Source of the DNA: Croceicoccus naphthovorans
GTDB lineage: Bacteria > Pseudomonadota > Alphaproteobacteria > Sphingomonadales > Sphingomonadaceae
Length of the DNA: 64,000 nucleotides
Reading direction: 5' to 3'
NCBI RefSeq assembly: GCF_001028705.1
Contig: NZ_CP011770.1
Location: 1,243,501-1,307,500, forward strand
The notes under the pieces are model-generated. The model was given only the letters and a program-made list of their open reading frames with translations, did not search any database and had not been told where the DNA came from. Shown here piece after piece: positions 11,161-54,432 of the stretch (position 1 is its first letter; every line of letters begins with the position of its first letter). A program made the translations under genes and the position numbers.

Positions 11161-11184
11161 CTCTTATTGGGATCGATCCGGCTC

Positions 11185-12323: not shown

Positions 12324-12440
12324 AGTGAGGCACGCAAAACCGGCACACGGTTCGTCCATGCGCCAGCCGCCAGGGGTGCGTGGATGAAACAGGGGATCAC
12401 TGCGGGGGTCGCCTCGATGGTTTCGACCGGGTCACGAGGG

Positions 12441-12502: not shown

Positions 12503-12510
12503 GGACGGAG

Positions 12511-12555
12511 AGCGGGTAGAGGCCGGAGCCATCCGGGTACTCTACCCGCTTTTCC
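12511..12555 (+). terminator. Intrinsic terminator / attenuator just before ahcY
   Basis: An 11-bp perfect stem (12511-12521 with 12540-12550), with a second CCGG/CCGG pairing in its loop, runs into TTTTCC. It ends 28 bases before the ahcY GTG and 10-15 bases before its ribosome site, the position expected of a transcription attenuator. Confidence 0.75.
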
Positions 12556-12582
12556 TGTTTCATGCCTCCAGAGGAGCAGCCC

Positions 12583-14004
<1,422 letters not shown>

Positions 14005-39989: not shown

Positions 39990-41551
39990 CGTCGTACCAG
40001 ACGGGAAAAAGCGCCTATCGCCGCCGCGTCGAGGGGAACTGGACCGCCGACAACGGCAAGCGGGCGATCATCGATATCGGATCGAACACCGTGCGTATGG
40101 TTGTCTATGGCGGATCGCCCCGCGCGCCGACGGTGCTCGCGAACGAAAAGGTGACGGCCCGCCTTGGCCGTGATCTGTCGCAGACCGGGAATATGGGCGA
40201 CGATTGCGTCGAACTGGCCCTGATCGGGCTGGCGCGGTTTGCGCTGATCCTGGCGGACCTTGGCATCAAGGACGTAGAGACCGTAGCCACCGCCGCCGTG
40301 CGCGACGCGGGCAATGGTCAGGCCTTCATCGCGAAGGTGCGGGCCTTGGGCCTGAAGGTGCGGATTATTTCCGGCAAGGAAGAGGCGCAGACCAGCGCTT
40401 TGGGCGTGATAGGGGCATTCCCCGGTGCTGTGGGTACGGTGGCCGATCTTGGCGGCGGCAGCCTGGAACTGATCGAGATTTCGGGTGACGAACCGGGCGA
40501 GGGTAGCACCTTGCCGCTAGGCTCGTTGCGTTTGGCGGCCCTGCGTGAAGATGGCGAGGACAAGTTCCAGTCCCGCGTGGGCAAGGCGCTGAAGCAGGAA
40601 GGCTGGAAGCGCGAGACCGGCGGCACGTTGTTCCTTGTCGGCGGAACATGGCGGACGATGGCGGTGCTGGCGATGGAGCAGCAGGGGCACCCGCTATCCG
40701 ACCCGCACGGGCTGTGCGTTGATGTCGGGATGGCGGCCAAGCTGGCGCGGCGCACGGCCAAGGCCTCGGCGCAGGATTTGCAGACAATTCCGCGCGTATC
40801 TTCCATGCGCGCCCAGATTTTGCCGCATGCGGCGGCGCTGCTGGGGTGCTTGCTCAAGACATTGCAGCCGGAGCGTCTGGTCTTTTCTGCGTGGGGCCTA
40901 CGCGAAGGCTTACTTTATAACCGGCTCAGCGCGGCGGAAAAGGCGCAGGACCCGCTGTTGGCGGGTCTGTCGTTGTTCGCGGGCCAACACGGCGCGCCGC
41001 CGATGTTATGCACCCGGATCGCGGGCTGGACCGTCGATGCCGTACCGCGCAGCAGCAACGGGAACGAGCGGTTGCGGCTCGCCGCGACGATGCTCTCGCT
41101 GGCGTCGTTGCAGGTGGAGCCCAACCTTCGCCTGAATCACGCGATGGACTGGGCGCTTTACAAACGCTGGTTGGGGGTGGACGATGCCGATCGCGCGATG
41201 ATGGCGGCAGCGGCCATCGCCAACGGCGGCGCGACCGGCATGCCACCGATTCTGACCGAACTGGCATCGACAGAGCAATTGGAGCTGGCGACGGCATGGG
41301 GCCTCGCCACGCGACTGGCCCGCCGGTTGGGGATGCAGTCGCAAGCATCGTTACAGGCGGCGCGGCTGCGGGCGGATGGCGGTACCCTGCTGTTGGCGAT
41401 TCATGAAAGTCACGCCGCTCTCTCCGTGCCCCCTGTGCGCAAGGACATGAAGAAGTTGGCCGAATGCATGGGCCTGGAACCGGAGATCGAGATTCTCAGC
41501 GATGCGCAGTTCACGGCACTACGTACCAAAGACACCAGCGAAGCCGCATAA
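39986..41551 (+). CDS. ppx: Exopolyphosphatase, Ppx/GppA family
   Basis: Releases phosphate from the ends of polyphosphate and may also hydrolyse pppGpp. The 521-aa protein has the actin-fold phosphate loops IIDIGSNTVRMVVYGG near residue 28 and TVADLGGGSLELIEI near 150, EEAQTSALGVIGAFPG (catalytic Glu region), plus a C-terminal helical domain as in long Ppx forms. It starts at GTG 39986, overlapping the ppk1 stop (GTGA). A terminator follows. Confidence 0.93.
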   Translation: MTSYQTGKSAYRRRVEGNWTADNGKRAIIDIGSNTVRMVVYGGSPRAPTVLANEKVTARLGRDLSQTGNMGDDCVELALIGLARFALILADLGIKDVETVATAAVRDAGNGQAFIAKVRALGLKVRIISGKEEAQTSALGVIGAFPGAVGTVADLGGGSLELIEISGDEPGEGSTLPLGSLRLAALREDGEDKFQSRVGKALKQEGWKRETGGTLFLVGGTWRTMAVLAMEQQGHPLSDPHGLCVDVGMAAKLARRTAKASAQDLQTIPRVSSMRAQILPHAAALLGCLLKTLQPERLVFSAWGLREGLLYNRLSAAEKAQDPLLAGLSLFAGQHGAPPMLCTRIAGWTVDAVPRSSNGNERLRLAATMLSLASLQVEPNLRLNHAMDWALYKRWLGVDDADRAMMAAAAIANGGATGMPPILTELASTEQLELATAWGLATRLARRLGMQSQASLQAARLRADGGTLLLAIHESHAALSVPPVRKDMKKLAECMGLEPEIEILSDAQFTALRTKDTSEAA

Positions 41552-41614: not shown

Positions 41615-41788
41615 TCAGATGTCGTTGCCCAGCTTGCCTTCGACCTCGCCCTTGAACTGTTGGGCTTCACCCTTGGCTTCCTGCTCGCGGCCTTCTGCGC
41701 GGGTGTTCGGGTTGCCGCTTTCCTGCTTTACGTTGCCGATGGCTTCGTTGACGTTGCCTTTTACCTTTTCCGTAAGTTCGCCCATCAT
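41615..41788 (-). CDS. CsbD family stress protein
   Basis: A 57-aa hydrophilic protein. The reverse strand reads MMGELTEKVKGNVNEAIGNV, then a Glu/Lys/Gln-rich body ending EVEGKLGNDI. KVKGNVNEAIGNVKQE is the CsbD signature, a family of small general-stress proteins of unknown action. AAGGAG stands 4 bases before the first of two ATGs (41788 and 41785), and either could be used. It is the last core gene before the integrated element. Confidence 0.85.
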   Translation of the reverse strand: MMGELTEKVKGNVNEAIGNVKQESGNPNTRAEGREQEAKGEAQQFKGEVEGKLGNDI

Positions 41789-42093
41789 GGCTCTCCTTAT
41801 CTATTTGCAAACAGGCGGTTTTGCCTGCGTTTGATAAGAGAACGGCTGAACCGACGGATCGGGTCCGGCGCTCGTCGCACGCGCATTTCGGCTCATCGAT
41901 CAACGATGGCGAAAAGGTGGCGGCGAGTTTGAAAAAGTGGCTCCCCGAGTAGGATTAGCACGGATTTCCACTAACGAGATGATATAAAACGGTAATATTA
42001 GTAAAAACTGGTTTATCGAGACTATTTTTCCCACATTCGTCCGCATTGCCCGAGCCGCGATTCTTGTGCAAGCATTCCCTTTTGGGGGTGTCG
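41789..42093. other. Gap between the CsbD gene and the element's first gene, holding the left attachment site
   Basis: No gene is seen in this 305-bp stretch. The left copy of the 27-bp attachment repeat is at 41930-41956; to its right the DNA becomes clearly more AT-rich, with ATATAAAACGGTAATATT-like sequence near 41983-42000 that could hold a promoter for the cargo gene. Confidence 0.6.
41930..41956 (+). repeat. Left attachment repeat (att) of the tRNA-Asn element
   Basis: This 27-bp sequence, starting TGAAAAAGTGGCTCCCC and ending AGGATT, is identical to 53453-53479. Its last 19 bases equal the 3' end of the tRNA-Asn gene. It marks the distal boundary of the integrated element. Confidence 0.92.
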
Positions 42094-42675
42094 ATGAATT
42101 GGGAAGCTATATCAGCTATCGGTCAGGTTGCCGGGGCCGCCGCAACCTTGGCGGCAGTCATCGTTTCGCTGCGTTTGGCGAGACGGGCGAGCCGTCCAAA
42201 CCTTACAGTCTCTTTGCGTGAGCAATTGATTCTCATTGGCGACGATACCGAGCATGTAATGACATTTAGCGTCGTCAACGTAGGTGGGCGCGATGCTGAG
42301 GTCAGAAGCTTGGGCTGGCGCACAGGATGGTTCAAATGGGGTCCTGAGTGGATGCGCTTAAGACACGCTGTTCAGATGTTCGAACCTCGCATAGGAATGC
42401 TATCTCCGCCCTATATAATAGCTCCCGGCAGTGAAGTTTCGAGCCGTATCGGGCGTGATAACATTCTGCAGCATGCAGAGCGGTTCGGACGTACGGGACC
42501 GCTTTTCACTCGTAAGGCCCCTTGGGGGATCATTACTACAAGAACAGTGATACAAGCCTATACCGCTGACGGTTATCGTTTTCGTGGGAAAGTCGAGAGA
42601 TCCGCGCTTAAGAAATTGGCAAATGCCGAGAGGGACGGGCGTCGTGCCGTCGAGATCGGCGCTTTTTCTAAATGA
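42094..42675 (+). CDS. Membrane-anchored hypothetical cargo protein
   Basis: A 193-aa protein of unknown function and the only element gene on the plus strand. Residues 1-30 (MNWEAISAIGQVAGAAATLA...) form one membrane helix followed by a basic stop-transfer LRLARRASRP. The rest looks like a beta-rich cytoplasmic domain (VMTFSVVNVGGRDAEVRSLGW). The base composition is more AT-rich than the neighbours. A GGGGG site favours the ATG at 42094 over 42046. Its place at the distal end, opposite to the other genes, is typical of a lysogen-expressed accessory gene; an exclusion or defence role is only a guess. Confidence 0.65.
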   Translation: MNWEAISAIGQVAGAAATLAAVIVSLRLARRASRPNLTVSLREQLILIGDDTEHVMTFSVVNVGGRDAEVRSLGWRTGWFKWGPEWMRLRHAVQMFEPRIGMLSPPYIIAPGSEVSSRIGRDNILQHAERFGRTGPLFTRKAPWGIITTRTVIQAYTADGYRFRGKVERSALKKLANAERDGRRAVEIGAFSK

Positions 42676-42724
42676 GCCATCGCTCTCGCCCTAAATCGCT
42701 GGATAGAGACAAGCCCTTTGGGGG

Positions 42725-44085
42725 CTAGGCAAACTCGGCTCCGAAATAGGTCCAGTTGCTCGATACCATCGCTTTGCCAGAAAGCGTTTCGTAGCACTGC
42801 ACATGGAATGGGTCGCCGGGATCGGCCTCAAGCCACGGCGTTTCTAGGTTCGCGCCCACGAATGAAGTCGCCACCTGCCCGCTGGAGATGAATTGCAGGT
42901 AGGGGTGTCCGACAAGCCCAATGCTCATTTCGTCGCTGGTGCTGGTTCCGCCAATCCAGAACTTGGCATTGCTGTGCCCCGATGGCACGACAAGCTGCGT
43001 CTGGCTGGTGTCGGGATCGAACGCCCCGCCGGTCGTATCATAAACAATATCGGCGGTGCCGCTGCTGCCCCAATCCAAGATATTCCAGGTGCTTTGTGTG
43101 AGAGCCTGCGCGGTCGGGATTCGAAGCAGGATGCGCGGATTGTCCGATGCCTTCCAGATTGCAAGGAAGCAGTTGTTATCGCTGACCGTTGCAACCGAAC
43201 CGGGTTTATAGCCCTGCGGATAGACGACAGACCCAGCGGCGGGCCGGATGCAGAGAACGCGCGCTGACCGGTAACGCCCTGAGTGGACTGATATGGGATG
43301 ACCTGATTGCCGGTGCTGAGAAGATTCAGCCGTTCGGCGTTGGCCGCGCCTACCGTGCTGTACGCGCCCGCGAAATGATAGAAGCCTGCAACGTCGATGC
43401 GGATAGTACCGTTGCCGAGTAACGTAAAATCGCCGGTATTTTCCAGCATCGTGGTGAGCGGTATCGGGAAAGCATTTTCTGGCGCGTCATAGTTGCTTGT
43501 GCGCACAGCCACGCAATAAGGCGTCCCAGCGGGCAGCTTTTCCATCGCGAACCAAGTACGATCGGCGCGGCAACCACCTGTGCCAGAGCCAGCCAACCCG
43601 GCCACGCCGTACAGTTCGTCGTCCTCTGAAAAGATATAGGGCGCGGTCGTCAGGTTCATGTAGCAGACGCCGTTGAGGTCCATGTCGCAGTATTGCGCCC
43701 CAAACTGCTTTGGTTGCGCCCCGTTAAGGACAGGGAATGCTCTAACGTCATCAGCAAATGGGCCGCGCTGCATCAGGACGCGCATCAGCGCCCCGTCGAG
43801 CGCCGCCGGAACCGTGACGATGTTGCTCACGCCCGGTGCATACATGCCATAGGGGTCTGTATTCTCTCCCGCTGGGCCAAGGCTGTCATCGTTGTAAGGC
43901 GTCGCATAGGCCCCACCCACCGCCGTTACATCGCTGCCGGTAACGCCGATGAAAAGCACGCGCTCGACTTCCGCACTCTCTGGCGTGCTGTCATAGACTA
44001 GCGTGCTGCCGTGGTAGACGCGCCCGATTGCCGTGCTGCCGTGGTAGAGCGCCGCAACCTGATTTGCCCCGCGATAGATCGGCAT
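42725..44085 (-). pseudogene. Tail-fibre-like phage protein, frameshifted
   Basis: Begins MPIYRGANQVAALYHGSTAI and VYHGSTLVYDS, the repeated Y-x-G-S-T pattern found at the start of phage minor tail or fibre proteins. The frame reads sensibly to about VTGQRAF (near 43270), then turns to Arg/Ser/Pro-rich nonsense and stops at 42925. The matching sense frame, from CIRPAAGSVVYPQGYKPGS through SSNWTYFGAEFA, continues to 42725. The total length is two bases over a multiple of three, so one base seems lost near the GCGCGCG at 43264-43275. A sequencing error cannot be excluded. Intact, it would be about 453 aa. Confidence 0.75.
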
Positions 44086-44565
44086 TTACGCCTCCGGCAC
44101 AAAATAGAATGTGTCAGCGTCCGGGGTCAGCGCATCGTATGCCGCCTGATCGGCAACGACGATAAAGCCAAGGTTCACTTGCGCGGTCGGTGCGTCGGCC
44201 AGATCGGAGAGGTCGTTTGCTGTCAGCAAGGGTGTCGCGGCAAGGTCCAGAACGCCGCCTGTCAGGTCCAGCCCGTCGCCAAGGCTGATTTCCTCTATCG
44301 CGCCTGTATCGGCGCTGTAGCGGCCCAGCAGGCGGTTTGTCGCCATTGTCAGCGCCGTGGCAGTAATCGGCCCGCTGGAGCCTGTCAGGCCCTCCATATA
44401 GGCCGCCATCGCTGCAATCGCCGCAATGACTGCGTTCATTTCCGTGGGGAAGTCACCTTGCCAATCGACAAAGGCTTCCGCCGCAGGCGTGAAGGTAGCG
44501 GGCGCTTGCGAACGCAAGGGTGCGTCGGGTGCGGGCGTGAGGGTCGGGATCGTCGGTGCGGGCAT
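44086..44565 (-). CDS. Phage tail-fibre-associated protein
   Basis: A 159-aa protein beginning MPAPTIPTLTPAPDAPLRSQ and ending FIVVADQAAYDALTPDADTFYFVPEA. The start (Pro-rich tail-collar-like) and the V-A-D-Q-x-x-Y-D-A-L-T-P-D-x-D-T-x-Y-F end are common in phage minor tail and fibre genes. The middle TALTMATNRLLGRYSADTGAIEEISLGDGL looks like a fibre shaft segment. Its stop abuts the start of the 44085 gene, and its ATG overlaps the stop of the small gene upstream. It probably forms the tail tip with its neighbour. Confidence 0.7.
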   Translation of the reverse strand: MPAPTIPTLTPAPDAPLRSQAPATFTPAAEAFVDWQGDFPTEMNAVIAAIAAMAAYMEGLTGSSGPITATALTMATNRLLGRYSADTGAIEEISLGDGLDLTGGVLDLAATPLLTANDLSDLADAPTAQVNLGFIVVADQAAYDALTPDADTFYFVPEA

Positions 44566-44681
44566 CAGTCCTTACTCTCAGGCTTGACGGGTTTCTCTGG
44601 CGGTCGTTCGGGATTTAAAAGCGCATCGAACCAAAGGCGCTCCGGCGACCACGGCGCGGGGTCTTTCGGCTTTTCCATCAT
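44565..44681 (-). CDS. Small hypothetical protein overlapping the terminase 3' end
   Basis: A 38-aa protein (MMEKPKDPAPWSPERLWFDA, then ALLNPERPPEKPVKPESKD) in a frame other than that of the terminase, overlapping its last 104 bases. TTGGGGGATAT provides a ribosome site, and its stop overlaps the next ATG (TGATG), so it is likely translated. The Pro/Lys/Glu-rich makeup gives no function. Confidence 0.5.
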   Translation of the reverse strand: MMEKPKDPAPWSPERLWFDALLNPERPPEKPVKPESKD

Positions 44682-46065
44682 ATCCCCCAATCCGGACGCG
44701 TTGAATGGTCCGGTCTTGCCGCAGACAGCCGTAGCGAACGGCATCGGCGGCATGGTCGGGGCCGCTGGAATCCACGTCCTCAACCCGCTTCTGATCGCGG
44801 GCGAGATAGGGCACGGTTGACCAGAAATATTCGCAGACGCGCGACACATAGAGTCCGGGCAAATCGGGCTTTCCAGCGTCGGCCAGCATGCGGCGCATGA
44901 TGTTCCAGCCGGTTAGGCGGTCGGCTTTCTTTGCCGGACTGAACAGGACGCCATAACGTGAAAACTCGTTGGCAATGCTGCCATTGCTGTGTCCGTGGGC
45001 AGCGAATATCGCATCGTCGGCCACACCTTGCGCTCGGACGCCCCAGCGCTTGCACATGGCAACGATTTCCTCCGCCAAGATCGGCACAGTCCAGCCAAGG
45101 CCTTCGGTTGGCCTGTCGCGCTTGCAGGTCGCCAGTTCGTCCACCAGCACAAGGCTGTCGCGGGGATAGAACTTGCCGTCCGGACCCTCGGCGCCGGGTG
45201 ACTTGGCAACGATGTAGGTTGCGCTCGGCGCGCTACTGCCAAAGTCGTGGGTCAGGTATGTTCGCCAGCCCTTCGGGATTTCCGCCCACGGGTCCACCGC
45301 GTTGCGGCTTTCGTCCAGCACGCTCGCGAAATAGGCACCTCGGACAATGGCCCAATCGCCATCGATCCACGCCTTTAGAAGCTCCTGATCGTCAGGGCAG
45401 CTAGAACGCAATTGATCCCCATATTGCGCGCGGTCGATGAACTTGTTCCCTGCGAACGTCGAAGGCGCATAGACCCACTCGCGACCGGATTTTTCCTCGT
45501 CAAAGGGCTTCCACGGGGCTGATTTGAAAACATACCGCTTGGCAAGCCAGTAATGGCCCACGCCGCCCGGATTTGCCGCCATGACGACGCGGATCGGCAC
45601 ATCCTGCGGCCCGCGAAGGTTCGAGCGCAGAATGTCGAGCAAGGCGCTGTCCGGATATTGCCCCGCCTCATCCACCATCAGCAGCGTGAAGGTGCGGCCC
45701 TGATACTTGGCATAGTCGGCATGGGTCTCAAGCTGGCCAAGTTCCATGTAACCGCCGCTGGGAAAGCGCCAGACATGCTCGCCGCCGTTGTAACGCGCCT
45801 GTGCGCCGTAAATCCCGCCGAACAGTTCGCGCGTTATCAATTCAAAGTCGGCAATGCCCTTGTAGCTGCGGCGAATGTAGAGGATGCGCGCCCGCGCCCC
45901 GTATTTCACGACATGGCGCAAAGCCAAAAGGGCGAGGGCATAGGATTTGCCCCCGCCGCGCCCCCCGCCGAGAAAGACATCGGTATCCTCGGGGACGCCC
46001 ATAACCTCTGCTTGGAAGGGGTTATATTCCAGATTCACTTTGCATCGCCTGATTGAAGGCTTCAT
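44578..46065 (-). CDS. terL: Phage terminase large subunit
   Basis: The ATPase-nuclease that packs DNA into phage heads. It has Walker A FLGGGRGGGKSYALALLAL near residue 32-50, Walker B TLLMVDEAGQ near 130, a coupling segment VMAANPGG, and RNase-H-like nuclease residues (THDFGSSAPSA, then GVADDAIFAAHG and the C-terminal GPDHAADAVRYG). Up to 495 aa; the likely start is the GTG at 46038 (VNLEYNPF), which overlaps the preceding gene by 17 bp. The last 40 residues after AVRYGC look unusual and overlap another small gene. Confidence 0.93.
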   Translation of the reverse strand: MKPSIRRCKVNLEYNPFQAEVMGVPEDTDVFLGGGRGGGKSYALALLALRHVVKYGARARILYIRRSYKGIADFELITRELFGGIYGAQARYNGGEHVWRFPSGGYMELGQLETHADYAKYQGRTFTLLMVDEAGQYPDSALLDILRSNLRGPQDVPIRVVMAANPGGVGHYWLAKRYVFKSAPWKPFDEEKSGREWVYAPSTFAGNKFIDRAQYGDQLRSSCPDDQELLKAWIDGDWAIVRGAYFASVLDESRNAVDPWAEIPKGWRTYLTHDFGSSAPSATYIVAKSPGAEGPDGKFYPRDSLVLVDELATCKRDRPTEGLGWTVPILAEEIVAMCKRWGVRAQGVADDAIFAAHGHSNGSIANEFSRYGVLFSPAKKADRLTGWNIMRRMLADAGKPDLPGLYVSRVCEYFWSTVPYLARDQKRVEDVDSSGPDHAADAVRYGCLRQDRTIQRVRIGGYDGKAERPRAVVAGAPLVRCAFKSRTTARETRQA

Positions 46066-46732
46066 TGGCGGCGTCGGCTTCGGCGGCTTCGCGCTCGATC
46101 CGCGCCAACTGCCTCGGATCGGTCAGCCCCTTGGCAAAATTACCGGCCGAGCGGCTTGCTGTGCTGACGGCATCGAGTACCTCGTCCAGCCTGGCCTGCT
46201 CGTCTATCTCAGCCCCGGCGTGCCGGGAAAGGATCATCTTTTTGTAGGCCGCGCTCTGCTCGGCGGTGATGCCGGAAAGCGTTGGGGATGCCTCCACGAT
46301 CGCCGCCAGCAAGGGGCCGTCATTGTTATCGACCATATCCTTGATGAAGGCGGCACGGGCCTTGCCATCCATGCCGAAAAAGCGGGCACGCACCTCTTGC
46401 GCATATTCGTTCTGCTTCAAGTTGACCTTGGCAGCAATTCGAGCCTCGATATCTCGCGTGCCCGCTCGATACAGGTCAGTCGCCCGCTGGATCATGGCGG
46501 TGATTTCGCTGTCGAACTTCTTGCTGGCCTTTCCAATCTTCATCACATGTGCAGACGGCGTGTCGTACGGGCTGCGTGTCTTGCGCAGGTCGTCCAGTGT
46601 GGCGGCGCTGTCGCGCAGCCTGCTGACCTCGCCCTGCATGCGCTGTGCAATGCTGTGGTCGCCCATATCACGCAGCATGCGGTCGGCGATGTGTGCAAGC
46701 GCCTGTACGGTCGGGTCGGGCACGTTACTCAT
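46022..46732 (-). CDS. Hypothetical phage protein between the terminase subunits
   Basis: A 236-aa, highly helical, charged protein (MSNVPDPTVQALAHIADRML at the start; KKFDSEITAMIQRATDLYRAGTRD mid). It may form coiled coils. The start at 46732 overlaps the upstream gene by 8 bp, and its end overlaps terL. No family is recognised; the position suggests a packaging accessory. Confidence 0.65.
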   Translation of the reverse strand: MSNVPDPTVQALAHIADRMLRDMGDHSIAQRMQGEVSRLRDSAATLDDLRKTRSPYDTPSAHVMKIGKASKKFDSEITAMIQRATDLYRAGTRDIEARIAAKVNLKQNEYAQEVRARFFGMDGKARAAFIKDMVDNNDGPLLAAIVEASPTLSGITAEQSAAYKKMILSRHAGAEIDEQARLDEVLDAVSTASRSAGNFAKGLTDPRQLARIEREAAEADAANEAFNQAMQSESGI

Positions 46733-46949
46733 TGTCTGCATCCTCGACGGCAGCACGGAACGCCAGCACGGCATTGCCGAGATCGGCCTGCCCATTCGCA
46801 ATCATGCGCTTGGCCTCGCGGCTCAGATGGTCGTGGAAGTGCGGAAAGGGTGGCGTTGCGCCAGCCCCCTCCTGCCTATGGCGTTCCTTCATGATCCCGC
46901 CAATGTTGCGGAACGCATCGCCTATTGCGCCAAACTCATCTCTGTCCAT
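46725..46949 (-). CDS. Small hypothetical phage protein
   Basis: A 74-aa protein (MDRDEFGAIGDAFRNIGGIM, then Lys/Arg and His-rich stretch FPHFHDHLSREAKRMIANG). It overlaps the small terminase gene upstream by 14 bp and the next gene by 8 bp, which supports a real translated gene in the packaging cluster. Function unknown. Confidence 0.6.
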   Translation of the reverse strand: MDRDEFGAIGDAFRNIGGIMKERHRQEGAGATPPFPHFHDHLSREAKRMIANGQADLGNAVLAFRAAVEDADNE

Positions 46950-47514
46950 CGATCGTACCTTTCACTTTCTGTGCATACTGTTCGCGTGACATGGCCCCAG
47001 GCAGGGCGATGGTGACGCTCACACCACCGCCCTGCGCGCTCTGGTCGCCCTCCCGGTAGCCGTGACGTGCTTTCAGGAGGAACATGGCAGCCGGAGCGTT
47101 GTCTTGTTCCATTGCCAGCCGGAACAGCTTGTTATGCAGTGCCCAGCGTTCGGACTCGCGGCCCGCATCGAACGCGTCTTGCAGTTCGGGTTGCGCCTCT
47201 AGCCACTTGTTGAACGTCTTGGGGGTCGTGCCCAGCTTTGCCGCCACACCGACGACTGAGAAGCCATCGGCTGCATATTCGCGCACCAGTGCAAGCGCAT
47301 TGGCCGGGGGCTTGCTTGGCTTTCCGCCGGGTCGCTTGAGCGGTCTATGGGTGATAGGCTTTGTCACGGCACAAGCACTGTGCGCTGTTCGATCGGCACC
47401 CTCTACGGACGCTCCCGCATTTTGCGAGCTTATCGGGTCAATGTGATGGTCATAGTGTGGGAAAATCGGTGACGCGTTCTGTGATCGCTGGGCATGGCCA
47501 TAGAAAACAAGCAT
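46936..47514 (-). CDS. terS: Terminase small subunit-like HTH protein
   Basis: A protein of up to 192 aa. Residues about 70-105 form a helix-turn-helix (ALALVREYAADGFSVVGVAAKLG, TPKTFNKWLEAQPELQDAF) followed by a helical stretch LHNKLFRLAMEQDNAPAAMFLLKARHGYRE, the usual form of Terminase_1-type small subunits that recognise the pac or cos site. The first 50 residues are less convincing, and a GTG at 47367 (TKPITHRPLK) is an alternative start. It precedes terL with two small genes between. Confidence 0.78.
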   Translation of the reverse strand: MLVFYGHAQRSQNASPIFPHYDHHIDPISSQNAGASVEGADRTAHSACAVTKPITHRPLKRPGGKPSKPPANALALVREYAADGFSVVGVAAKLGTTPKTFNKWLEAQPELQDAFDAGRESERWALHNKLFRLAMEQDNAPAAMFLLKARHGYREGDQSAQGGGVSVTIALPGAMSREQYAQKVKGTIDGQR

Positions 47515-47595
47515 TTCCTAGTTAGGTTCGACTCTGAACGGCAGAGCCAGCCCTTTTTAGTGCGGGAGGAATAGGGGTCAGCGAGCCTTTCACCA

Positions 47596-48381
47596 TCAAA
47601 ACACCATCACCGCATCGGATAATGCATCCCGGTATCTCTCCGGCAAATTCCGTCCGTGAATGAACTTGCTGAGCGTGCCATGAGGGATGCCAAGACTGTC
47701 AGCGAGGCGTGATTGCTCCCCCGGATCATGCCTGCCGAGGTGATCGAGCGTTGATTGGCGCAAAGCGTCCAATTCGGCCCGCGTACATGAATTGGCTTGT
47801 TTCCGTTGTTCTGTTTCCAGTCCCGCTAACCTATCCCCCTGGCTAACTGTTTGTGGCTCAATATCTGAGAAATGGGCATCGGCGGAAATGACAGGTTTTT
47901 CCATTCCATCTGGCTCAAGTTCTGCGCCAGTGGGATGCGACGTTTCCAAGCCAATGTCAGAAACTGCGCCCGCTCGTGTCAGAAACTGGTCCCGTGAATT
48001 TTCGTGTTTCCACTTTTCATAGGCGTGTGACGGGGCGCGGTTCGGTCCCGATGGGCCGGCCAGCCACGTGAAGCCGTACTTGGCCGCGTGGGGTGTCTTG
48101 CGGCTAAATCCACCGCGTTCGCTGCAATAGAGGAAGCCCATCTCGATAAGTTCGGCAATGGCGCGGCGAACAGTATTCCGTGAGAGGCCGGTCATCTCTG
48201 CGCCGGTTCTGTCGCTGAAAAACCACTCGCCGTTGTTATCGCCATTTTCAAATAGGCCCATCGCCAGCATGACCTTTACGGCAGAGCCGCTAAGCGCCCG
48301 CCATGCGTCGGTGTCGATCTGCTTCTTGAACGATCGGACATGCTTTCGCTTATCGCGATAGGTTGAGCGGTCCTGCCCCAT
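47596..48381 (-). CDS. Helix-turn-helix replication-type protein
   Basis: A 261-aa protein. Residues about 20-100 look like a winged-helix replication initiator (LSGSAVKVMLAMGLFENGDN, MTGLSRNTVRRAIAELIEMGFL), and the C-terminus has a second HTH (QSRLADSLGIPHGTLSKFIHGRNL). The middle is low-complexity. Phage and satellite replication or helix-turn-helix proteins share this plan. It lies 3 bp after the preceding 76-aa gene. It might act as the element's replication initiator or as a regulator; this is inference. Confidence 0.65.
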   Translation of the reverse strand: MGQDRSTYRDKRKHVRSFKKQIDTDAWRALSGSAVKVMLAMGLFENGDNNGEWFFSDRTGAEMTGLSRNTVRRAIAELIEMGFLYCSERGGFSRKTPHAAKYGFTWLAGPSGPNRAPSHAYEKWKHENSRDQFLTRAGAVSDIGLETSHPTGAELEPDGMEKPVISADAHFSDIEPQTVSQGDRLAGLETEQRKQANSCTRAELDALRQSTLDHLGRHDPGEQSRLADSLGIPHGTLSKFIHGRNLPERYRDALSDAVMVF

Positions 48382-48384
48382 CGC

Positions 48385-48615
48385 TTACTCCGGATCATGT
48401 TTGGACTGGAATATTTCCCACCGGCGAGTTCTCATGGCCTTGGCAATCGCTACCCTGTCCTTCCACGACAGTTTCTCCGCCAAGATTTCCATTTCCCTAT
48501 GCACAGCGCGCATCTGGAATTCGTAGTCTGCCAGCCTGACTTGATCGACGAGGCGTTGCCCATCTGTCGATATCCCGGCGCGGAATGCAGCCAGTGACAC
48601 GATGCGGCCCGTCAT
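48385..48615 (-). CDS. Small hypothetical protein
   Basis: A 76-aa protein (MTGRIVSLAAFRAGISTDGQ; then helical LADYEFQMRAVHREMEILAEKLSWKD in part). It overlaps the interrupted gene upstream by 4 bp (ATGA) and is followed closely by the HTH gene. No family is recognised. Confidence 0.6.
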   Translation of the reverse strand: MTGRIVSLAAFRAGISTDGQRLVDQVRLADYEFQMRAVHREMEILAEKLSWKDRVAIAKAMRTRRWEIFQSKHDPE

Positions 48616-48902
48616 TGTTCGTGCTCCTCTTCGCGCCCGTCATGCTCACAGCCGCCGGGATCGCTGATCGGACAGCCTACGCCGCCACCCCACATGCCGG
48701 GTCGATGGGGGCAGAAATCGTCCTCGCCTAAGTTGCCGTCCAGCTCGTCGCCGTTCGGTTCAACGTCGGAGTCGCCGTCCAACTGGTCTAGTCGTTCAAG
48801 GATGATGGCCGCTGCAAGGCCGCTGGTTTCCTGCATTGCTGTGAGTGTGTGCAGGATGCGTTCAAGATCGCCACGTGCGACCGGGATTGCGCCGTTTGTT
48901 AG
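48612..48902 (-). pseudogene. 3' part of a small gene split by the IS1380 element
   Basis: Reading across the IS with one copy of the 4-bp duplication removed, the frame runs from ATG 50567 (MNIAHL) into TNGAIPVARGDLERILHTL and on to an acidic protein of about 101 aa (LDQLDGDSDVEPNGDELDGN) ending REEEHEQ at 48612. An internal ATG at 48836 could still give a 74-aa product, but the native start and AGGAGG site are now 1.65 kb away. Function unknown. Confidence 0.75.
48899..48902. repeat. Left target-site duplication (TTAG) of the IS1380 element
   Basis: TTAG here and at 50549-50552 directly flank the inverted-repeat ends. A 4-bp duplication is the known size for IS1380-family insertion. Confidence 0.85.
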
Positions 48903-50548
48903 CCCGGTTTATTCATGAGGCCGCAGCAGCGAAGTGGATGGGCCTTGATCTGACGTTGGCGGCGTAGTCCGGGCGAGCGTCTTCGACGGCATTTTTCACC
49001 GCGTCAGGATCAATGGGCTTTTCGAGGTTGATGGAATGGAGCTCGGAGTTCGGCGGCACAGCCGCACCGCCTAAGTAGGTGCAGGCCTGAGATTGGTGGC
49101 GATGGCTTTCAAAACGGAGGCATCGGGACAGGCTGACGCGAAGGCGACACGGATGCGAGTGGCGCTCTCAATGACGCGGGCAGCGACCTTGAGCAGCCTG
49201 AGGCGCAACGTTGCGAACTCGGCGGTCGCGAGCGAGGCTGCCTTGGGGATTTCCTGCTGAATGCGCCACAGGAGCCAGTATGCGGCGGTGTGCAGGATGA
49301 GGCGCATCTGATTGGCGTTGGGAGAGCGGCACGAGGTGCGATCGCTGGCCAGCTGGGTCTTGTGCAGCTTGATCAGGTTTTCGGCCTGACCGCGCGCGCA
49401 GTAGAGCGTATCATAGATGTGCTCGGCCGAGCCTTCGGTCAGCGAAGTGACGACATAGCGGATGTCCATGCCCATCGTACTGGCCTCGATCCGGGCGACG
49501 ACGCGGCGCTGGCACTTCCAGCTTTTGGCCCCGTAGCGGGTCTCGGCATAGGTGCGCAGGACCGGGTACTGGCGCTGAGCGCGTTTGACCGCACAGGCAT
49601 CGGCGGCAACGACGATTTCGGGATCGGCGCGTAGCACGGCGTTGGTCGGCAGGCCGAACACGTAGTCGACGCCGCAACCCTCGCAGACGGCCATGACCTC
49701 GGGCCGCCCATAGTGCCCGTCGCCGCGGATGGTGATGTGCGTTTCGGGCCATTGCCGGCGGATGTGGCGCACGAGGCGCCGGATGTGACCGGCAGCTTCA
49801 ACACCAGACGGTGTCTTGCCGGTGCGCAGCAGCATCGCCACCGGCCGGCCAGTGGCGGTGTCGTAGACATGGATCGGCAGGAAGCAACGCTCGCCATGAT
49901 GACCATTCCAGAACGACAACTGCTGATAGCCATGGACGACATCGCAGGTATCATCGATATCCAGCGTCACCGCCGCCGGCGGGGCCGGATAGCTGGCGCA
50001 GTAGATGTCGATCATCGCGGCCAGCATCTTCGCCAACTCGCGCGTGATCGGTGCATTCTCCCACCGGCTCATCGTCGGTTGGCTGGCCAGCCCCGCGCCC
50101 GATCCCGGCAGCTTGCCCAGGGCCAGGCGGAAGCCCGGATCGTCGCGCAGGGCATCGAGATCGTCGGCATCCTCATAGCCGCAGGCGATCGCGAACACGC
50201 GGGCACGCAGGATGTCGTCGAGGCGATGGATCACCCGCGCAGGATCGCGCGGATCGGCAATGCAAGTCGCAAGCCGCTGGCAGATACCCATCGCGCGCTC
50301 GGCCTGCGACAGCAACAGAACGCCGCCGTCCGAAGTGAGCCGACCACCGTCGAACGCGGCTGTGACTTTCTTGCGGTCGACCGCTGGGAATCGGAAGGGG
50401 CTTGCGATATCGTCGTTCATGGCGGGTGTGGCCTGTGGCATTTTCTGCCCTGCAGCAGGGCCGGTGTAGACACCCAGTTCCTAATTCAGATCAGAGGCTT
50501 ATGCCACTCCCGCCAACCCTTCGTAGCCAACCCCGTGAATAAGACGGG
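48903..50548 (-). mobile_element. IS1380-family insertion sequence
   Basis: A 1646-bp insertion bounded by imperfect 18-bp inverted repeats (CCCGGTTTATTCATGAGG at 48903-48920 and CCCGTCTTATTCACGGGG, read inward, at 50531-50548; 14 of 18 match), with TTAG duplicated on both sides. It holds one transposase gene. It is inserted in the element's small-gene cluster and is therefore younger than it or travelled with it. Confidence 0.93.
49071..50441 (-). CDS. IS1380 family transposase
   Basis: A 456-aa DDE transposase. The N-terminal FDGGRLTSDGGVLLLSQAER is typical of IS1380. The acidic triad is visible as LDIDDTCDVVHG, ITIRGDGHYGRPEVM and ARGQAENLIKLHKTQL. Full length with no internal stop, so probably active. 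AGGG lies 7 bases before ATG 50441; ATG 50420 (MNDDIASPF) is an alternative start. Confidence 0.95.
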   Translation of the reverse strand: MPQATPAMNDDIASPFRFPAVDRKKVTAAFDGGRLTSDGGVLLLSQAERAMGICQRLATCIADPRDPARVIHRLDDILRARVFAIACGYEDADDLDALRDDPGFRLALGKLPGSGAGLASQPTMSRWENAPITRELAKMLAAMIDIYCASYPAPPAAVTLDIDDTCDVVHGYQQLSFWNGHHGERCFLPIHVYDTATGRPVAMLLRTGKTPSGVEAAGHIRRLVRHIRRQWPETHITIRGDGHYGRPEVMAVCEGCGVDYVFGLPTNAVLRADPEIVVAADACAVKRAQRQYPVLRTYAETRYGAKSWKCQRRVVARIEASTMGMDIRYVVTSLTEGSAEHIYDTLYCARGQAENLIKLHKTQLASDRTSCRSPNANQMRLILHTAAYWLLWRIQQEIPKAASLATAEFATLRLRLLKVAARVIESATRIRVAFASACPDASVLKAIATNLRPAPT

Positions 50549-50567
50549 TTAGGTGCGCGATATTCAT
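50549..50567 (-). pseudogene. 5' stub (first six codons) of the gene split by IS1380
   Basis: ATG 50567 (MNIAHL), preceded by CAGGAGGCGCGC, overlaps the stop of the upstream 103-aa gene (ATGA). The reading frame is broken by the IS at 50548. Together with 48612-48902 it forms the original gene. Confidence 0.75.
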
Positions 50568-50875
50568 GCGCGCCTCCTGTCCAGCACGCGATGACCATCG
50601 ATGCGAAGGATTGCGAAAATCTCGTCGCACAGATGCCAGCCATCATAGATCTCCTCGCGCACGATGATGTCGAGCTTCTCGGCCAGTTCGCGCTGCGTTC
50701 CGACTGGGCACATCAAGAGAGCATCCATCGCCCGCGTAGTGATGGAGGAAAGACGGTTCAGTTCGTCCTGATACCCCTCCGGCTCGTCCTTTGGTGCATA
50801 GTCGAAAGCGGAGTGAGAATCGAAGGCGGCCTTGGCGATGCGATAGGCGCGGTGCAGTTCGTCAAAATCGGTCAT
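50564..50875 (-). CDS. Hypothetical protein
   Basis: A 103-aa acidic, helical protein (MTDFDELHRAYRIAKAAFDS; then ...MCPVGTQRELAEKLDIIVREE). It overlaps its upstream neighbour by 4 bp and the IS-split gene by 4 bp, showing one compact early operon before the IS came in. No family is recognised. Confidence 0.65.
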   Translation of the reverse strand: MTDFDELHRAYRIAKAAFDSHSAFDYAPKDEPEGYQDELNRLSSITTRAMDALLMCPVGTQRELAEKLDIIVREEIYDGWHLCDEIFAILRIDGHRVLDRRRA

Positions 50876-51159
50876 TTCCCGCCTCCCGTTTCGTCAACAA
50901 TCTGCCAACGACAGCACATTCTCAGACCGCCCGCGAAGCCGCGCGCCTGCCTGTAGTTGTCGAAGAGTTGCGGTGGGTGGTCTGCGGTCGGCGGTGTCAC
51001 CGAGACCATGAACAGGCCCTTGTCGCCGCGTCCGATCGTAATGGAGCGGTCAACAATCGTTGGATTTTCTGTGCCCGGAATGGTAGGAAACTTCGAGTTG
51101 TTAGCCGCAACATTCGAAGCCCTTGCGCTGTGTGCGTGGGGGTTTTTCGCGTCCATCAT
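50872..51159 (-). CDS. Hypothetical protein
   Basis: A 95-aa protein (MMDAKNPHAHSARASNVAAN...; TIGRGDKGLFMVSVTPPT; C-terminal RMCCRWQIVDETGGGK). It overlaps both neighbours by 4 bp. The function is unknown and no domain is recognised. Confidence 0.6.
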   Translation of the reverse strand: MMDAKNPHAHSARASNVAANNSKFPTIPGTENPTIVDRSITIGRGDKGLFMVSVTPPTADHPPQLFDNYRQARGFAGGLRMCCRWQIVDETGGGK

Positions 51160-51356
51160 ACGTCCCCCGTTTCATGTGCGGCGGGGGCCTCATTGATGAG
51201 GCGGTGAAGCGAATCTGCCGTTGCGAGCGTGCGCCCGCCAACCTTACGCAGATCAATTTTGCCTTCGTTGGCGAGTTTGTAGAAGTTGGTTCGACCGATG
51301 CCGAGCGCGCTCAGCGCCTCCGGTACGGTGTATGCGATCTTTGCCGAGTTGTTCAT
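51156..51356 (-). CDS. AlpA/excisionase-type helix-turn-helix protein
   Basis: A 66-aa protein with one winged helix-turn-helix: YTVPEALSALGIGRTNFYKLANEGKIDLRKVGGRTL. This is the MerR-like fold of excisionases and AlpA regulators, in which the wing lysine and arginine touch DNA. In satellites such proteins drive excision and early gene expression. It starts the run of overlapping small genes (51156-51159 overlap). A 69-bp gap separates it from the 229-aa gene upstream and may carry its promoter. Confidence 0.82.
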   Translation of the reverse strand: MNNSAKIAYTVPEALSALGIGRTNFYKLANEGKIDLRKVGGRTLATADSLHRLINEAPAAHETGDV

Positions 51357-51425
51357 ATGACAGTCCTCCGAATGGTTGCGGACGACTATCCAACTATGTC
51401 GTGGTGCCCTTCTACGGACGGGGTT

Positions 51426-52115
51426 TTATTCTCTCGCGAAATCCGGCGAGAATAGTTCCTCGCCATCGTCTCCGAAGCGTTCGCGTAGCTTCAATATCTG
51501 GTCTCTGGCCGCTGCTAGGACGACTTCATCGCGCCGTGTTTTCGGTTCGGTGAATGCAAGCGCCATGATTCGACGATAAAAATCCGGCCACGGCCCGCCG
51601 GTCGCATCGGCGGCCCAATCTTCGCTCAGGATTGTGGGGTCGCGACCAAACGCGAACCTAAAAACGTGCGACAACTGGAAAGCGCGCTCGACACGTAGCG
51701 ATTGGGCACGGGCATCACGCCAACGGGTCCGCTCGGGTTCTCTGTCCTTCAGCCTGAAGGCAACCTCTAACAGTTCTCCCAATGCCGTTTCGGCAGCGTC
51801 AAGGCGCGCCAAGTCGGCTTCAGACAAGTGGTGGCGCAATTCGTCATCGCTGCGCCTGATAGCGCCGTAAGCCTTCCCCGCCTTATCCCACACTTGCCCC
51901 CAGGCCGACTTGGATGCTGTTAGATTGGACGGAAACTCCTTTTCTCCGCTGGCCTCCTCGCAACCAATCGGCGGAAACGGCACCGTCGGCCCCAAGGCCT
52001 GCCGAATGGCACCGGCAACGCGATCGAAGCTCATTCTAGGCACGAGTTGATAGCCTGCGAGCGTTTCCTCCACCGCGTCGGGTGTAATGTGCCGCAGGAA
52101 TGGATCTTCGCTCAC
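51426..52115 (-). CDS. Hypothetical protein coupled to the integrase
   Basis: A 229-aa charged, largely helical protein (MSEDPFLRHITPDAVEETLAG; ...YRRIMALAFTEPKTRRDEVV). Its ATG overlaps the integrase stop by 4 bp, so the two are co-translated. No domain is recognised; the tight coupling suggests a recombination or regulation role. Confidence 0.6.
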   Translation of the reverse strand: MSEDPFLRHITPDAVEETLAGYQLVPRMSFDRVAGAIRQALGPTVPFPPIGCEEASGEKEFPSNLTASKSAWGQVWDKAGKAYGAIRRSDDELRHHLSEADLARLDAAETALGELLEVAFRLKDREPERTRWRDARAQSLRVERAFQLSHVFRFAFGRDPTILSEDWAADATGGPWPDFYRRIMALAFTEPKTRRDEVVLAAARDQILKLRERFGDDGEELFSPDFARE

Positions 52116-53284
52116 TGCGCGTTCGCCAGCGCGACGATCTCAGCGCTATCCTCGCCAGTGGCGAAACGTGCCCAATTATTCATCAGGTCGCGGCGCTTAT
52201 CGAAGAAATCGGTGCGCTTGTAGGATGCCTCCACTGCGTTCGGTACGGCATGAGCGAGTGCCGCTTCGGCAATCTCGCCTGCGACCGATGTTTGCTCTGC
52301 GGCCCAGTCGCGGAACGTGCTGCGCATCCCGTGGGCGGTGCAATTCATGCTCATGTCGCGCAGCGTCTTGGTCAATGCCATGTCAGAGAGGGCCACACCC
52401 TTGCCGTTCGGAAAGATATAATCGGAGCGTCGGAGCACTTTGGCCTCTTCCAGCACAGCGAGCGCTTGCGGGGTGAGGGGGACGCGGTGAGGCTTGCTCA
52501 TCTTCATTCGATCGCCGGGAATCGTCCACACCGCCTGAGCGAAGTCGATTTCATCCCATGTCGCACCGCGAATCTCGCCACTGCGGCTGGCGCACAGGAT
52601 AAGCATACGCAAGGCAAGCGCGCCCATGCTGGACTTGCCCTGCAAGCGGTCCATGAACGCGGGAAGTTCCTGATAGGGCAGGGCGCTGAAATTCCCCTTG
52701 GATGGCTGCTTGGGCAGTCGATCGGCAATCGCGGGTCCAAGTGTGCCCACGAACAGCGCGCCATCGGGACGGGTGAAGCGTAGGATGCGGACAATCAGGC
52801 TGCGGACCTGTCGCGCGACCTCGGGCTTCGTCGTCCATATCGGGCGAAGGCAATCGGCAATTCGGTCTGCCTCGATCGTCTGGACCTGCAACCTACCCAG
52901 CGAAGGGAAGGCATAGCGGGTAAGGTTCGATCGGTCCTGTTTCTGGCGCTTGGTGCCTACATCATCCGTTTTTGCGCTCAGGAAATCCTCTGCGGCCTCA
53001 CGGAACGTGCGCAGGAGCGGTGCAGGCTGCTCCCATAGGGTTCGGGGGTCTCGACCATCGGCAAGCGCCCTGCGGACCTCCCAAGCCCTCTCTCGCGCCT
53101 CTGCCAGCTTGTAGAGCTTGGCACTGCCGATTCCGTAGTCGCGGCGCTTGTTGTTGTGTTGGAAGCGCGCGACCCATGAAGCCTGCCCCGGTGCGCGCAC
53201 AAACAGGATCAATCCATCGCCATCGCTGTAACGTCCCGGCTTGTCGATCAGTGTTTTGACCTTGGCCGCCGTCAGTTTGCCCAT
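52112..53284 (-). CDS. int: Tyrosine-type site-specific integrase
   Basis: A 390-aa phage integrase. The N-terminal DUF4102-like arm-binding domain (LTAAKVKTLIDKPGRYSDGDGL) is followed by a SAM-like core-binding region and the catalytic domain with Arg234 (CASRSGEIRG), His318-Arg321 (AHGMRSTFRDW), His345 (ALAHAVP) and the nucleophile Tyr355 (ASYKRTDF). It sits beside tRNA-Asn and faces away from it, as expected for the enzyme that made the insertion. All catalytic residues are present, so it should be active. Confidence 0.96.
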   Translation of the reverse strand: MGKLTAAKVKTLIDKPGRYSDGDGLILFVRAPGQASWVARFQHNNKRRDYGIGSAKLYKLAEARERAWEVRRALADGRDPRTLWEQPAPLLRTFREAAEDFLSAKTDDVGTKRQKQDRSNLTRYAFPSLGRLQVQTIEADRIADCLRPIWTTKPEVARQVRSLIVRILRFTRPDGALFVGTLGPAIADRLPKQPSKGNFSALPYQELPAFMDRLQGKSSMGALALRMLILCASRSGEIRGATWDEIDFAQAVWTIPGDRMKMSKPHRVPLTPQALAVLEEAKVLRRSDYIFPNGKGVALSDMALTKTLRDMSMNCTAHGMRSTFRDWAAEQTSVAGEIAEAALAHAVPNAVEASYKRTDFFDKRRDLMNNWARFATGEDSAEIVALANAQ

Positions 53285-53452
53285 AACATGCCCCCTCGGG
53301 TTGTCTGAGTTGGGTCAGTGCTTGTTCCTACACTGAGTACCACACATTAGGCGCGAATGGGGGCGAATGTCAATGAACGGTTATGAATAGGAAAAGCGCG
53401 CAGTTCTGCGGGGTTGCGCCCTGTTTTGTGGGCGGTCGTGAACAACGCTGAA

Positions 53453-53479
53453 TGAAAAAGTGGCTCCCCGAGTAGGATT
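53453..53479 (+). repeat. Right attachment repeat within the tRNA-Asn 3' end
   Basis: Identical over 27 bases to 41930-41956. Bases 53461-53479 are the tRNA's CCA end and T-arm part, so the tRNA stays complete after integration. Confidence 0.92.
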
Positions 53480-53535
53480 CGAACCTACGGCCATTCGATT
53501 AACAGTCGAATGCTCTACCGCTGAGCTATCGGGGA
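53461..53535 (-). tRNA. tRNA-Asn (GTT)
   Basis: Read on the minus strand: acceptor TCCCCGA paired with TCGGGGA, D arm AGCTCAGCGGTAGAGC, anticodon stem ATTCGA/TCGAAT around CTGTTAA (anticodon GTT), T arm GGTTCGAATCC and encoded CCA. It is 75 nt long and complete. It is the integration target of the neighbouring element. Confidence 0.97.
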
Positions 53536-53637: not shown

Positions 53638-54432
53638 TCAGATCTCGAACTGTTCCGCCACGATGCGTTCGTCCAGGCTGTGGCCCCGGTCGAACAGCAG
53701 CGTCAGGTCGCGTTCGTGCGCCACTTCCACCCGGATCGAGTCGACATCGCGAATTTCCTTTTGGTCGGCCACGGCCGAGACCGGACGCTTCTTTGCATCC
53801 AGACAGCGAATTTCTATCGGCAGATGGTCGGGCAGGATCGCCCCGCGCCAACGCCGCGGGCGAAAGGCCGAGATCGGGGTGAGGGCGAGCAATCCGCAAC
53901 CGAGCGGCAGGATCGGCCCGTTGGCGCTGAAATTATAGGCGGTGGACCCGGCGGGCGTCGCCACCAGCACACCATCGCAGGCAAGCTCGGGGATGCGGAC
54001 CTTGTGGCCGACCTTGATCTCCAGCTTTGCGGTCTGGCGCGTTTCCCTCAGCAGAGAGACTTCGTTGATCGCGCAACTGGTAATCGTATCCCCGCCATGC
54101 GTAGTGGCCGTCATCATCAGCGGCGAAACCTCGAACTGGCGGGTGCGGTTCACACGCTCGAGGATCGGTAGCCGACTCGCCTCGCGCTTGTTCATCAGAA
54201 AACCGACCGTGCCCAGGTTCATGCCGTACGCGGGCAGGATGCGTCCTTTGTCGATCATCTGGTGCAGCGTTTGCAGCATATAGCCATCGCCGCCCAGAAC
54301 GACGATGCCGTCGGCATCCTCGAACGGGACGAAGTCGTACGCGGCGCGCATTTCCTCTGCCGCTGTCTGCGCCTTGTCCGTAGGCGACGCGGTCAGCGCC
54401 AGCTTCTCAAGCTTCTTGCGGGCCTTGGCCAC
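53638..54432 (-). CDS. nadK: NAD kinase
   Basis: Phosphorylates NAD to NADP. The 264-aa protein shows the GGDG motif (VVLGGDGYMLQTLH, Gly47-Gly50), the NE-like PAYGMNLGTVGFLMN and the NAD-binding TPAGSTAYNFSANGPILP. The start is a GTG at 54432 (VAKARKKLEK), preceded by GGGGGAGT further up. It is 77 bp downstream of mfd on the same strand. Confidence 0.95.
   Translation of the reverse strand: MAKARKKLEKLALTASPTDKAQTAAEEMRAAYDFVPFEDADGIVVLGGDGYMLQTLHQMIDKGRILPAYGMNLGTVGFLMNKREASRLPILERVNRTRQFEVSPLMMTATTHGGDTITSCAINEVSLLRETRQTAKLEIKVGHKVRIPELACDGVLVATPAGSTAYNFSANGPILPLGCGLLALTPISAFRPRRWRGAILPDHLPIEIRCLDAKKRPVSAVADQKEIRDVDSIRVEVAHERDLTLLFDRGHSLDERIVAEQFEI

Follow-up and report, generated by a model that had tools for sequence, protein, structure and literature searches.

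Gene content of the element

The window analysed here is a stretch of 64,000 nucleotides from the 3.86 Mb genome of Croceicoccus naphthovorans (contig NZ_CP011770.1; G000:C1:1243501-1307500). It contains an 11.5 kb element inserted at a tRNA-Asn gene. Genes were called from open reading frames (ORFs) and assigned to families by Pfam and PHROG matches. Coordinates refer to the window, and all genes described lie on the minus strand unless stated otherwise.

Inward from the tRNA, the first gene encodes a tyrosine integrase of 390 aa (52112–53284; Arm-DNA-bind_3, Phage_int_M and Phage_integrase). Its arm-binding, central and catalytic domains are all present, in agreement with a preliminary description of this DNA that reported a complete integrase beside the tRNA. 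The overlapping gene codes for a 229-aa protein without assigned function (51426–52115); a relative with 43% identity occupies the same place in a related element, L077. An AlpA-like helix-turn-helix (HTH) regulator of 66 aa follows (51156–51356), recognised by an HTH_17 match at the cut-off and a weak match to an excisionase/regulator PHROG. Next are a conserved 95-aa protein (50872–51159), for which relatives were sought in viral contigs and none was found, and a 103-aa ORF product without assigned function (50564–50875). The transposase gene inside the element (49071–50441; PF13701), which we take to be of the IS1380 family, is followed by genes for a 74-aa protein (48612–48836), a 76-aa ORF product without assigned function (48385–48615) and a RepO/DnaD-like replication initiator of 261 aa (47596–48381; phrog_270 and phrog_345). 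The 95-aa protein, the 74-aa protein and the initiator (29–30% identity) have relatives in L062, an element that occupies this site in a different genome of the genus.

The packaging genes start with the terminase small subunit (TerS; 46936–47514; phrog_309, 7e-14), whose actual start is probably internal to this ORF. A 74-aa ORF product without assigned function (46725–46949) and g12 (46022–46801; 259 aa) lie between TerS and the terminase large subunit (TerL) of 495 aa (44578–46065). A tail-tip protein of 159 aa (44086–44565; Phage_tail_C, PF24243) and a fibre-like protein (42925–44085) follow. The latter was named by eye, without a family match, and no phage record matched it. Its frame is broken near the 3' part, and the downstream part of the gene was recognised by eye in another frame (42725–43078). 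A fibre ORF with the identical frame break is also present on a 110,992-bp contig (P0003), so a single assembly error may not account for it. The last gene is a plus-strand ORF for a 209-aa protein without assigned function, possibly cargo (42046–42675). Among the element proteins, no Pfam or PHROG match to a portal, protease, capsid or connector was obtained.

The element had been described as one dense minus-strand gene run with 4-bp overlaps, ending in terminase and tail-like genes. Exact 4-bp overlaps occur at 4 of the 14 gene junctions, and the run does end in the genes for TerS, the 74-aa and 259-aa proteins, TerL, the tail-tip and the fibre. However, the transposase gene interrupts the run, the plus-strand ORF lies at its far end and the fibre gene is divided between two frames.

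Integration site and empty sites

The element is enclosed by a 27-bp exact direct repeat (41930–41956 and 53453–53479), as first reported. The chance of an exact pair of 27-mers in 16 kb is about 7e-9, assuming equal base frequencies. The right copy takes in the 3' end of the tRNA-Asn(GTT) gene (53461–53535), the integration target, and covers its last 19 bases. The G+C content within the element (0.55–0.64 per kb) is slightly below that of most of the window. The flanking genes, named by eye, are ppx (39986–41551) and nadK (53638–54432). Immediately outside the left repeat, a CsbD-like protein is encoded (41615–41788), with a match below the Pfam cut-off.

The distance between the ppx and nadK matches was used as an empty-site test across 14 genomes of the genus. 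Both genes are only 0.65–0.71 kb apart in seven of the 14 (G001, G003, G005, G007, G010, G012, G013). The distance is 12.1 kb in the window genome, 11.9 kb in G006 and 13.1 kb in G004. Four genomes were uninformative, with both genes non-adjacent or on separate contigs (G002, G008, G009, G011). Three empty sites were fetched (L064, L065, L066), and each has the tRNA-Asn and a single repeat-like copy. The empty locus proposed as a check is thus present in relatives. Neither the same DNA without repeats in related strains nor a full prophage with a strain-specific loss of capsid genes was seen. Among the ten readable genomes, the site is occupied in three, each time by a different element, which identifies the tRNA-Asn gene as a used integration site. 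The element is real and of a mobile type.

Repeat-bounded relatives with the same plan

Eight repeat-bounded elements of 9.2–13.5 kb, the window element included, have a TerL of one clade. L077 (in G138) lies at a tRNA-Thr with a 48-bp repeat containing one mismatch (9.15 kb), L068 (in G030) at a tRNA-Arg with a 45-bp repeat (10.8 kb) and L094 (in G937) at a tRNA-Gly with a 50-bp repeat (11.06 kb). The 46-bp repeat of L081 (in G430; 11.1 kb) reads like a tRNA-Gly end, at which ARAGORN called no tRNA. L095 (in G686, from another family of the class) has a 14-bp repeat at a tRNA-Ser (11.7 kb), and L008, in an alphaproteobacterial metagenome-assembled genome, a 15-bp repeat at a tRNA-Ala (9.98 kb); repeats of this length are weak alone, and both are located at a tRNA 3' end. 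The 30-bp repeat of L126, a record from a viral collection, begins in a tRNA-Leu 3' end (13.5 kb). Boundary repeats were absent from L079, L080, L083, L084, L012 and L017, or present there as 12-bp chance matches only; L082 has a repeat with only 33 of 45 matching positions.

Integrase, replication gene, TerS and TerL are common to all eight elements. The preliminary description had suggested a search for the order int-HTH-rep-terS-terL-tail; the capsid-less plan int-rep-terS-terL is found again at other tRNA ends. Every integrase of the eight elements has matches among the others (E ≤ 1e-3); the L068 integrase also matches a XerC-like recombinase in the PDB (6e-5). TerS proteins of the window, L081, L094, L095, L008 and L126 match one another; those of L077 and L068 match the window TerS by tblastn. 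The TerS of L095 had no match in the PDB. The replication genes of the relatives among the first seven bounded elements are primases, and that of the window element is the RepO/DnaD-like initiator. The gene order of L077 is integrase, 239 aa, 70 aa, 91 aa, primase/helicase, TerS, a g12 relative, TerL and 147 aa. Its 239-aa protein is related to the 229-aa protein of the window, and its 70-aa protein reads like an HTH regulator.

Conservation and phylogeny of TerL

A full-length alignment with five close relatives shows an intact TerL. A frame over the end of the gene (44565–44849) was considered as a frameshifted C-terminus and dropped; in the six-sequence alignment, TerL is complete without it. 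The ratio of nonsynonymous to synonymous substitution rates (dN/dS) is 0.065 for window–L077, 0.117 for window–L016 and 0.085 for L077–L016; 0.108, 0.117 and 0.118 among L068, L082 and L083; and 0.096 for L081–L094. Seven of the eight pairs are thus in the range of 0.06–0.12, and the eighth (L079–L080) is saturated. Synonymous divergence exceeds 1 in four of the measured pairs, which makes these ratios imprecise. Five of the eight bounded elements are included in the pairs (window, L077, L068, L081, L094), and the ratios indicate that TerL is under strong purifying constraint in these five.

TerL matches 624 phage records, all with less than 60% identity; the top-ranked one is 34.5% identical. 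The phylogenetic analysis placed 19 element and contig TerLs in one clade with a support of 100/100, apart from 11 phage TerLs. This tree, unrooted and midpoint-drawn, also took in one plasmid and three long-branched genome rows. The clade comprises 44 of the 61 rows of a quick tree (Shimodaira–Hasegawa-like approximate likelihood ratio 100), for which the program warned of long branches meeting. Capsid-less rows are found on several branches of the quick tree and contigs with a major capsid protein (MCP) on others. The same large clade includes the distant contigs L151, L152, L154, L157 and L158, of which L151 and L152 have a portal match.

A match to TerL was found in 10 of 397 genomes of the family at E ≤ 1e-60. 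A search with a ten-row alignment at E ≤ 1e-90 yielded 7 of 397 genomes of the order and 2 of 386 of the class. These counts overlap, and each includes the genome of the window. The element type is rare and patchy.

Head genes in the elements and around related terminases

For the first seven bounded elements, 61 of the 90 listed ORFs were pooled (at least 100 aa for gene-picker ORFs, at least 200 aa in any frame). The pool left out integrases, primases, the initiator of the window and ORFs overlapping other genes; primases were scanned apart. The pooled ORFs matched 37 PHROG families at E ≤ 1e-3. Those listed include TerS (four members), methyltransferases, homing endonucleases and a DNA invertase, and no portal, capsid, protease or tail family is among the 25 of the 37 listed. 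The same library detects the capsid protein and protease of L062 and the capsid protein of the viral contig L019; the scan is therefore able to see such genes. Portals of PF04860 were found in G000, G138, G030, G430, G937 and G686 and portals of PF05136 in G000, G030 and G430, all outside the elements. PF05133 had no match in seven genomes. For L126, the scan covered four ORFs of at least 220 aa within 5 kb of TerL.

Viral contigs served for a controlled comparison (the best 80 of 192). The close set comprised 31 contigs with a TerL at least 50% identical, and the scan took in 84 gene-picker ORFs of at least 220 aa located no more than 5 kb from TerL. Among 25 of 150 families listed, the portal family phrog_145 had 2 members, the capsid family phrog_247 10 and a tape-measure family 3, next to many primases and helicases. 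In the distant set (37 contigs), 82 of 133 ORFs were scanned, with a choice skewed towards the downstream side. Here, phrog_145 had 16 members and phrog_12082 and phrog_156 had 7 each, possibly the same ones, among 25 of 117 families listed. The difference for phrog_145 (2/31 versus 16/37) has a Fisher p of 0.0007, and of 0.003 for loci with at least 1.5 kb downstream of TerL (2/20 versus 16/31), both with members treated as loci and not checked as one per locus.

Counted by locus, a set of eight portal-type queries matched 2 of 31 close contigs (L147, L148), 18 of 37 distant ones and none of the seven bounded elements. The set consisted of four annotated portals, three proteins without a name that follow TerL in phages, and the one of L147. 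The rows of this comparison are non-independent, L147 and L148 are sisters, and many contigs are short, with 11 of the 31 close ones ending within 1.5 kb of TerL. Around the nearest phage TerLs, a portal is located directly after TerL or a few genes on in 6 of 11 records (MW202444, Pam5, RcRudolph, VLCpiS6a, Sonora, HTVC104P). In four others, TerL is followed by a 62-kDa structural or unnamed protein; DoCa5 has neither.

Related elements with capsid genes

The element L062 (G006:C1:992000-1007000; 2154–13354) occupies the same tRNA-Asn site with 11.2 kb. Its repeat has 16 bp, with 24 of 40 positions matching in a wider frame. Identity to the window proteins is 43% for the integrase, 45% for the 95-aa protein, 49% for the 74-aa protein and 29% for the initiator. 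Downstream of these early genes, L062 encodes an HK97-type protease and a capsid protein. Genome G006 had no TerL of this type at E ≤ 1e-3 in a search for this TerL family only, and no match to three portal families; four further ORFs of L062 had no PHROG match.

An MCP (phrog_247) is encoded beside a TerL of the clade in ten viral contigs (L019, L020, L128–L131, L139, L140, L142, L149). The order is MCP-terS-terL in nine of them, and the MCP gene lies downstream in L149. None of the ten matched the eight portal-type queries, and by eye the more distant upstream genes look like replication genes, not portals. These contigs may represent a second satellite type.

A probable satellite with its own packaging motor

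We consider it fairly probable that the element is an integrated phage satellite equipped with a packaging motor of its own and supplied with procapsids and tails by a helper. The direct basis is the bounded insertion, the empty sites, the gene content, an intact and constrained TerL, and a plan that recurs at other tRNA ends. The integrase would insert the element into the tRNA-Asn gene and, together with the AlpA-like protein, would excise it during growth of a helper. The RepO-like initiator would copy the DNA and TerS would mark it for packaging. TerL, as a complete ATPase-nuclease motor, would then dock on the portal of helper procapsids and fill them. The portal for docking would have to come from the helper. 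Helper heads and tails would finally carry the satellite DNA, in a presumably helper-dependent life cycle.

A candidate helper is a prophage-like region on the same chromosome at about 1.47–1.50 Mb (L200, L201; G000:C1:1466000-1504000). It has a lambda-type portal (PF05136) and ORFs that read by eye as TerL, capsid and a long tape measure. Compared with the element proteins at E ≤ 0.01, it shares nothing except a weak integrase match of 64 residues.

The orphan protein g12 (233–259 aa) is encoded directly upstream of TerL. It has relatives near TerL in L077 and L016 and weaker ones in L127 and L150. On account of this constancy, a role in capsid size or docking may be considered for g12. The AlphaFold model is all-helical (predicted local distance difference test 86, predicted template modelling score 0.69, three sequences), and the fold had no match at E ≤ 0.001 in BFVD or the PDB. 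The top PDB rows were subunits of helical pore-forming toxins at E 0.03 or worse, taken as chance helical similarity.

Comparison with known satellites

The comparison draws on excerpts of the cited papers. Satellites have been defined as lacking structural genes (PMC13376191), and the known families are catalogued (PMC11389934). Phage-inducible chromosomal islands (PICIs) redirect helper packaging via TerS or Rpp and use the TerL of the helper (PMC10690885). Like PICIs and Staphylococcus aureus pathogenicity islands, the element combines a small size, repeat-bounded integration, integrase, regulator, replication gene and TerS with an absence of capsid genes; unlike them, it has its own complete TerL. 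Capsid-forming PICIs (cfPICIs) are also integrated and share the integrase, an AlpA-like regulator, a replication gene and both terminase subunits with the element. They additionally encode capsid protein, maturation protease, portal and connectors (PMC10690885), none of which was found in the element. The AlpA-like regulator and the replication gene lie on the integrase side, as in PICIs.

The P4-type gene set consists of sid, psu and delta. No P4-specific family was among the general Pfam and PHROG matches of the element, and no search aimed at P4 was made. Integrase, AlpA-type regulator, replication gene and, presumably, the use of foreign heads are P4-like, in contrast to packaging, which for P4 is performed by the terminase of the helper (PMC10690885). 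Putative satellites of E. coli are likewise located between attachment sites, many beside tRNAs, and have an unusual selection of virion genes; as described, they have capsid, tape-measure and baseplate genes without terminases, the mirror image of the element (PMC10448857). AH14b of Pseudomonas has int, AlpA, a primase and few tail-like genes and is packaged in helper capsids, as may apply to the element; the excerpt reports that no terminase was found in it (PMC4936722). The small PICMI elements share integrase and replication genes and the use of foreign particles, which is putative for the element, but for PICMI115 the excerpt states that no packaging-redirection genes (terS, sid, ppi) were found (PMC10803314).

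The element thus has general satellite features: attachment-site boundaries, a size within about 7–20 kb, integrase, regulator and replication genes, and no complete head-tail set. Of a prophage with portal, capsid and tail module, it has a tail-tip and a broken fibre gene. Its own TerL and the absence of capsid genes suggest a new variant that is neither a PICI nor a cfPICI as these are described. No satellite with TerS and TerL but without a capsid was among the open-licence matches listed (titles and abstract openings), which is no proof of novelty. The preliminary description, which named PICI and cfPICI as known satellites, had offered a satellite of an alphaproteobacterial phage or a strongly reduced prophage. 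The empty sites, the recurring plan and the TerL constraint favour a satellite; its own TerL departs from PICIs as described and the lack of capsid genes from cfPICIs, and the window copy may be degenerate.

Satellites as described borrow the motor of the helper or bring a whole head. If motor-only elements are real, the matching of TerL and portal could be looser than assumed, and a testable route from PICI to cfPICI would be available. Satellites would be placed in Sphingomonadales and another alphaproteobacterial family, where one literature search on the subject listed none. Detection via capsid genes may miss such elements; a TerL of this clade without a neighbouring portal would be a usable marker. 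A scattered satellite lineage with its own motor, intermediate between PICI (TerS only) and cfPICI (whole head), whose TerL clade is able to dock on foreign portals, is a tentative extension to which we give somewhat less than even weight. In this reading, head and motor would be exchangeable cassettes of one family: at one shared tRNA-Asn site, early genes that are related to each other are combined with the terminase half in the window and the capsid half in G006.

Alternative explanations

Several observations weigh against a satellite with its own motor. The window copy has a split fibre gene and contains a transposase gene. This copy may be in a decayed state and past its working life, which, with movement being a prediction, is the main weakness. 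A portal is located directly downstream of TerL in L147 and L148. The TerL of L021 has neck and tape-measure genes beside it, and the 60-kb viral contig in which it lies also holds, by eye, a second structural module. Relatives of g12 and TerL are neighbours in the fragment L016 as well, where they accompany genes for neck, distal tail and fibre. Capsid proteins account for ten ORFs of the close contig set. A capsid-remodelling role of g12 is only a guess, with no significant fold match. Exclusiveness of the TerL clade to satellites was rejected owing to L147, L148 and L021.

Part of this evidence would also be expected of a prophage reduced by loss of the head genes and most of the tail genes, with TerS, TerL, tail-tip and fibre as remains of a late operon. 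The broken fibre frame and the transposase gene fit such a decay, the arrangement in L016 resembles that of a phage late operon, with L021 as a comparable case, and a TerL remnant with stop codons is present in the genus. This origin is nevertheless unlikely. The same capsid-less plan is found in seven other repeat-bounded elements, TerL is under purifying selection in five measured of the eight, and it is improbable that separate decay events would arrive at one gene set and one size.

A derivation from a capsid-carrying satellite of the MCP-terS-terL type, by loss or exchange of the capsid gene, is less probable still. It would agree with the ten close contigs, nine of them with the MCP gene upstream of terS-terL and replication-like genes further upstream, and with G006, where related early genes at the same site precede an HK97 protease and capsid and no terminase was found. 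On the other side, capsid-less rows are on several separate TerL branches, also outside the MCP groups, in the quick tree with its long-branch warning. A defence or cargo island whose terminase no longer packages is very improbable: ORFs of the relatives match defence-type models, among them restriction-modification and AriAB-like ones (MTase_II, REase_II and AriAB-type among the pooled cargo ORFs), but all eight elements have a TerS next to TerL, TerL is constrained, and integrase and replication gene are also retained.

Additional observations

A gene transfer agent (GTA) origin of the element was rejected; the PF04860 portal of the genome lies in a separate cluster, and the element has no portal or capsid match. 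This cluster, at about 728–739 kb on the same chromosome (L122; G000:C1:728000-747000), includes TerL and capsid genes by eye and is presumably GTA-like.

The TerL remnant in the genus belongs to Croceicoccus ponticola (L011/L003; L003 in G003). It is C-terminal, 68–75% identical and contains in-frame stops, and represents a decayed relative. The second structural module of the 60-kb viral contig (G988; L021, L120, L121) has a fibre-like gene with a similar N-terminus, as judged by eye.

The third occupied tRNA-Asn site (L063; G004:C1:1333000-1349500) has no clear second repeat. It carries an integrase with 62% identity, an AlpA-like gene and different cargo; its large genes, for proteins of 1,636 and 300 aa, read by eye like defence genes. 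Directly downstream of TerL in L068, L081, L082, L083 and L094, a conserved 275-aa protein without Pfam or PHROG match is encoded, with 65–76% identity to that of L081.

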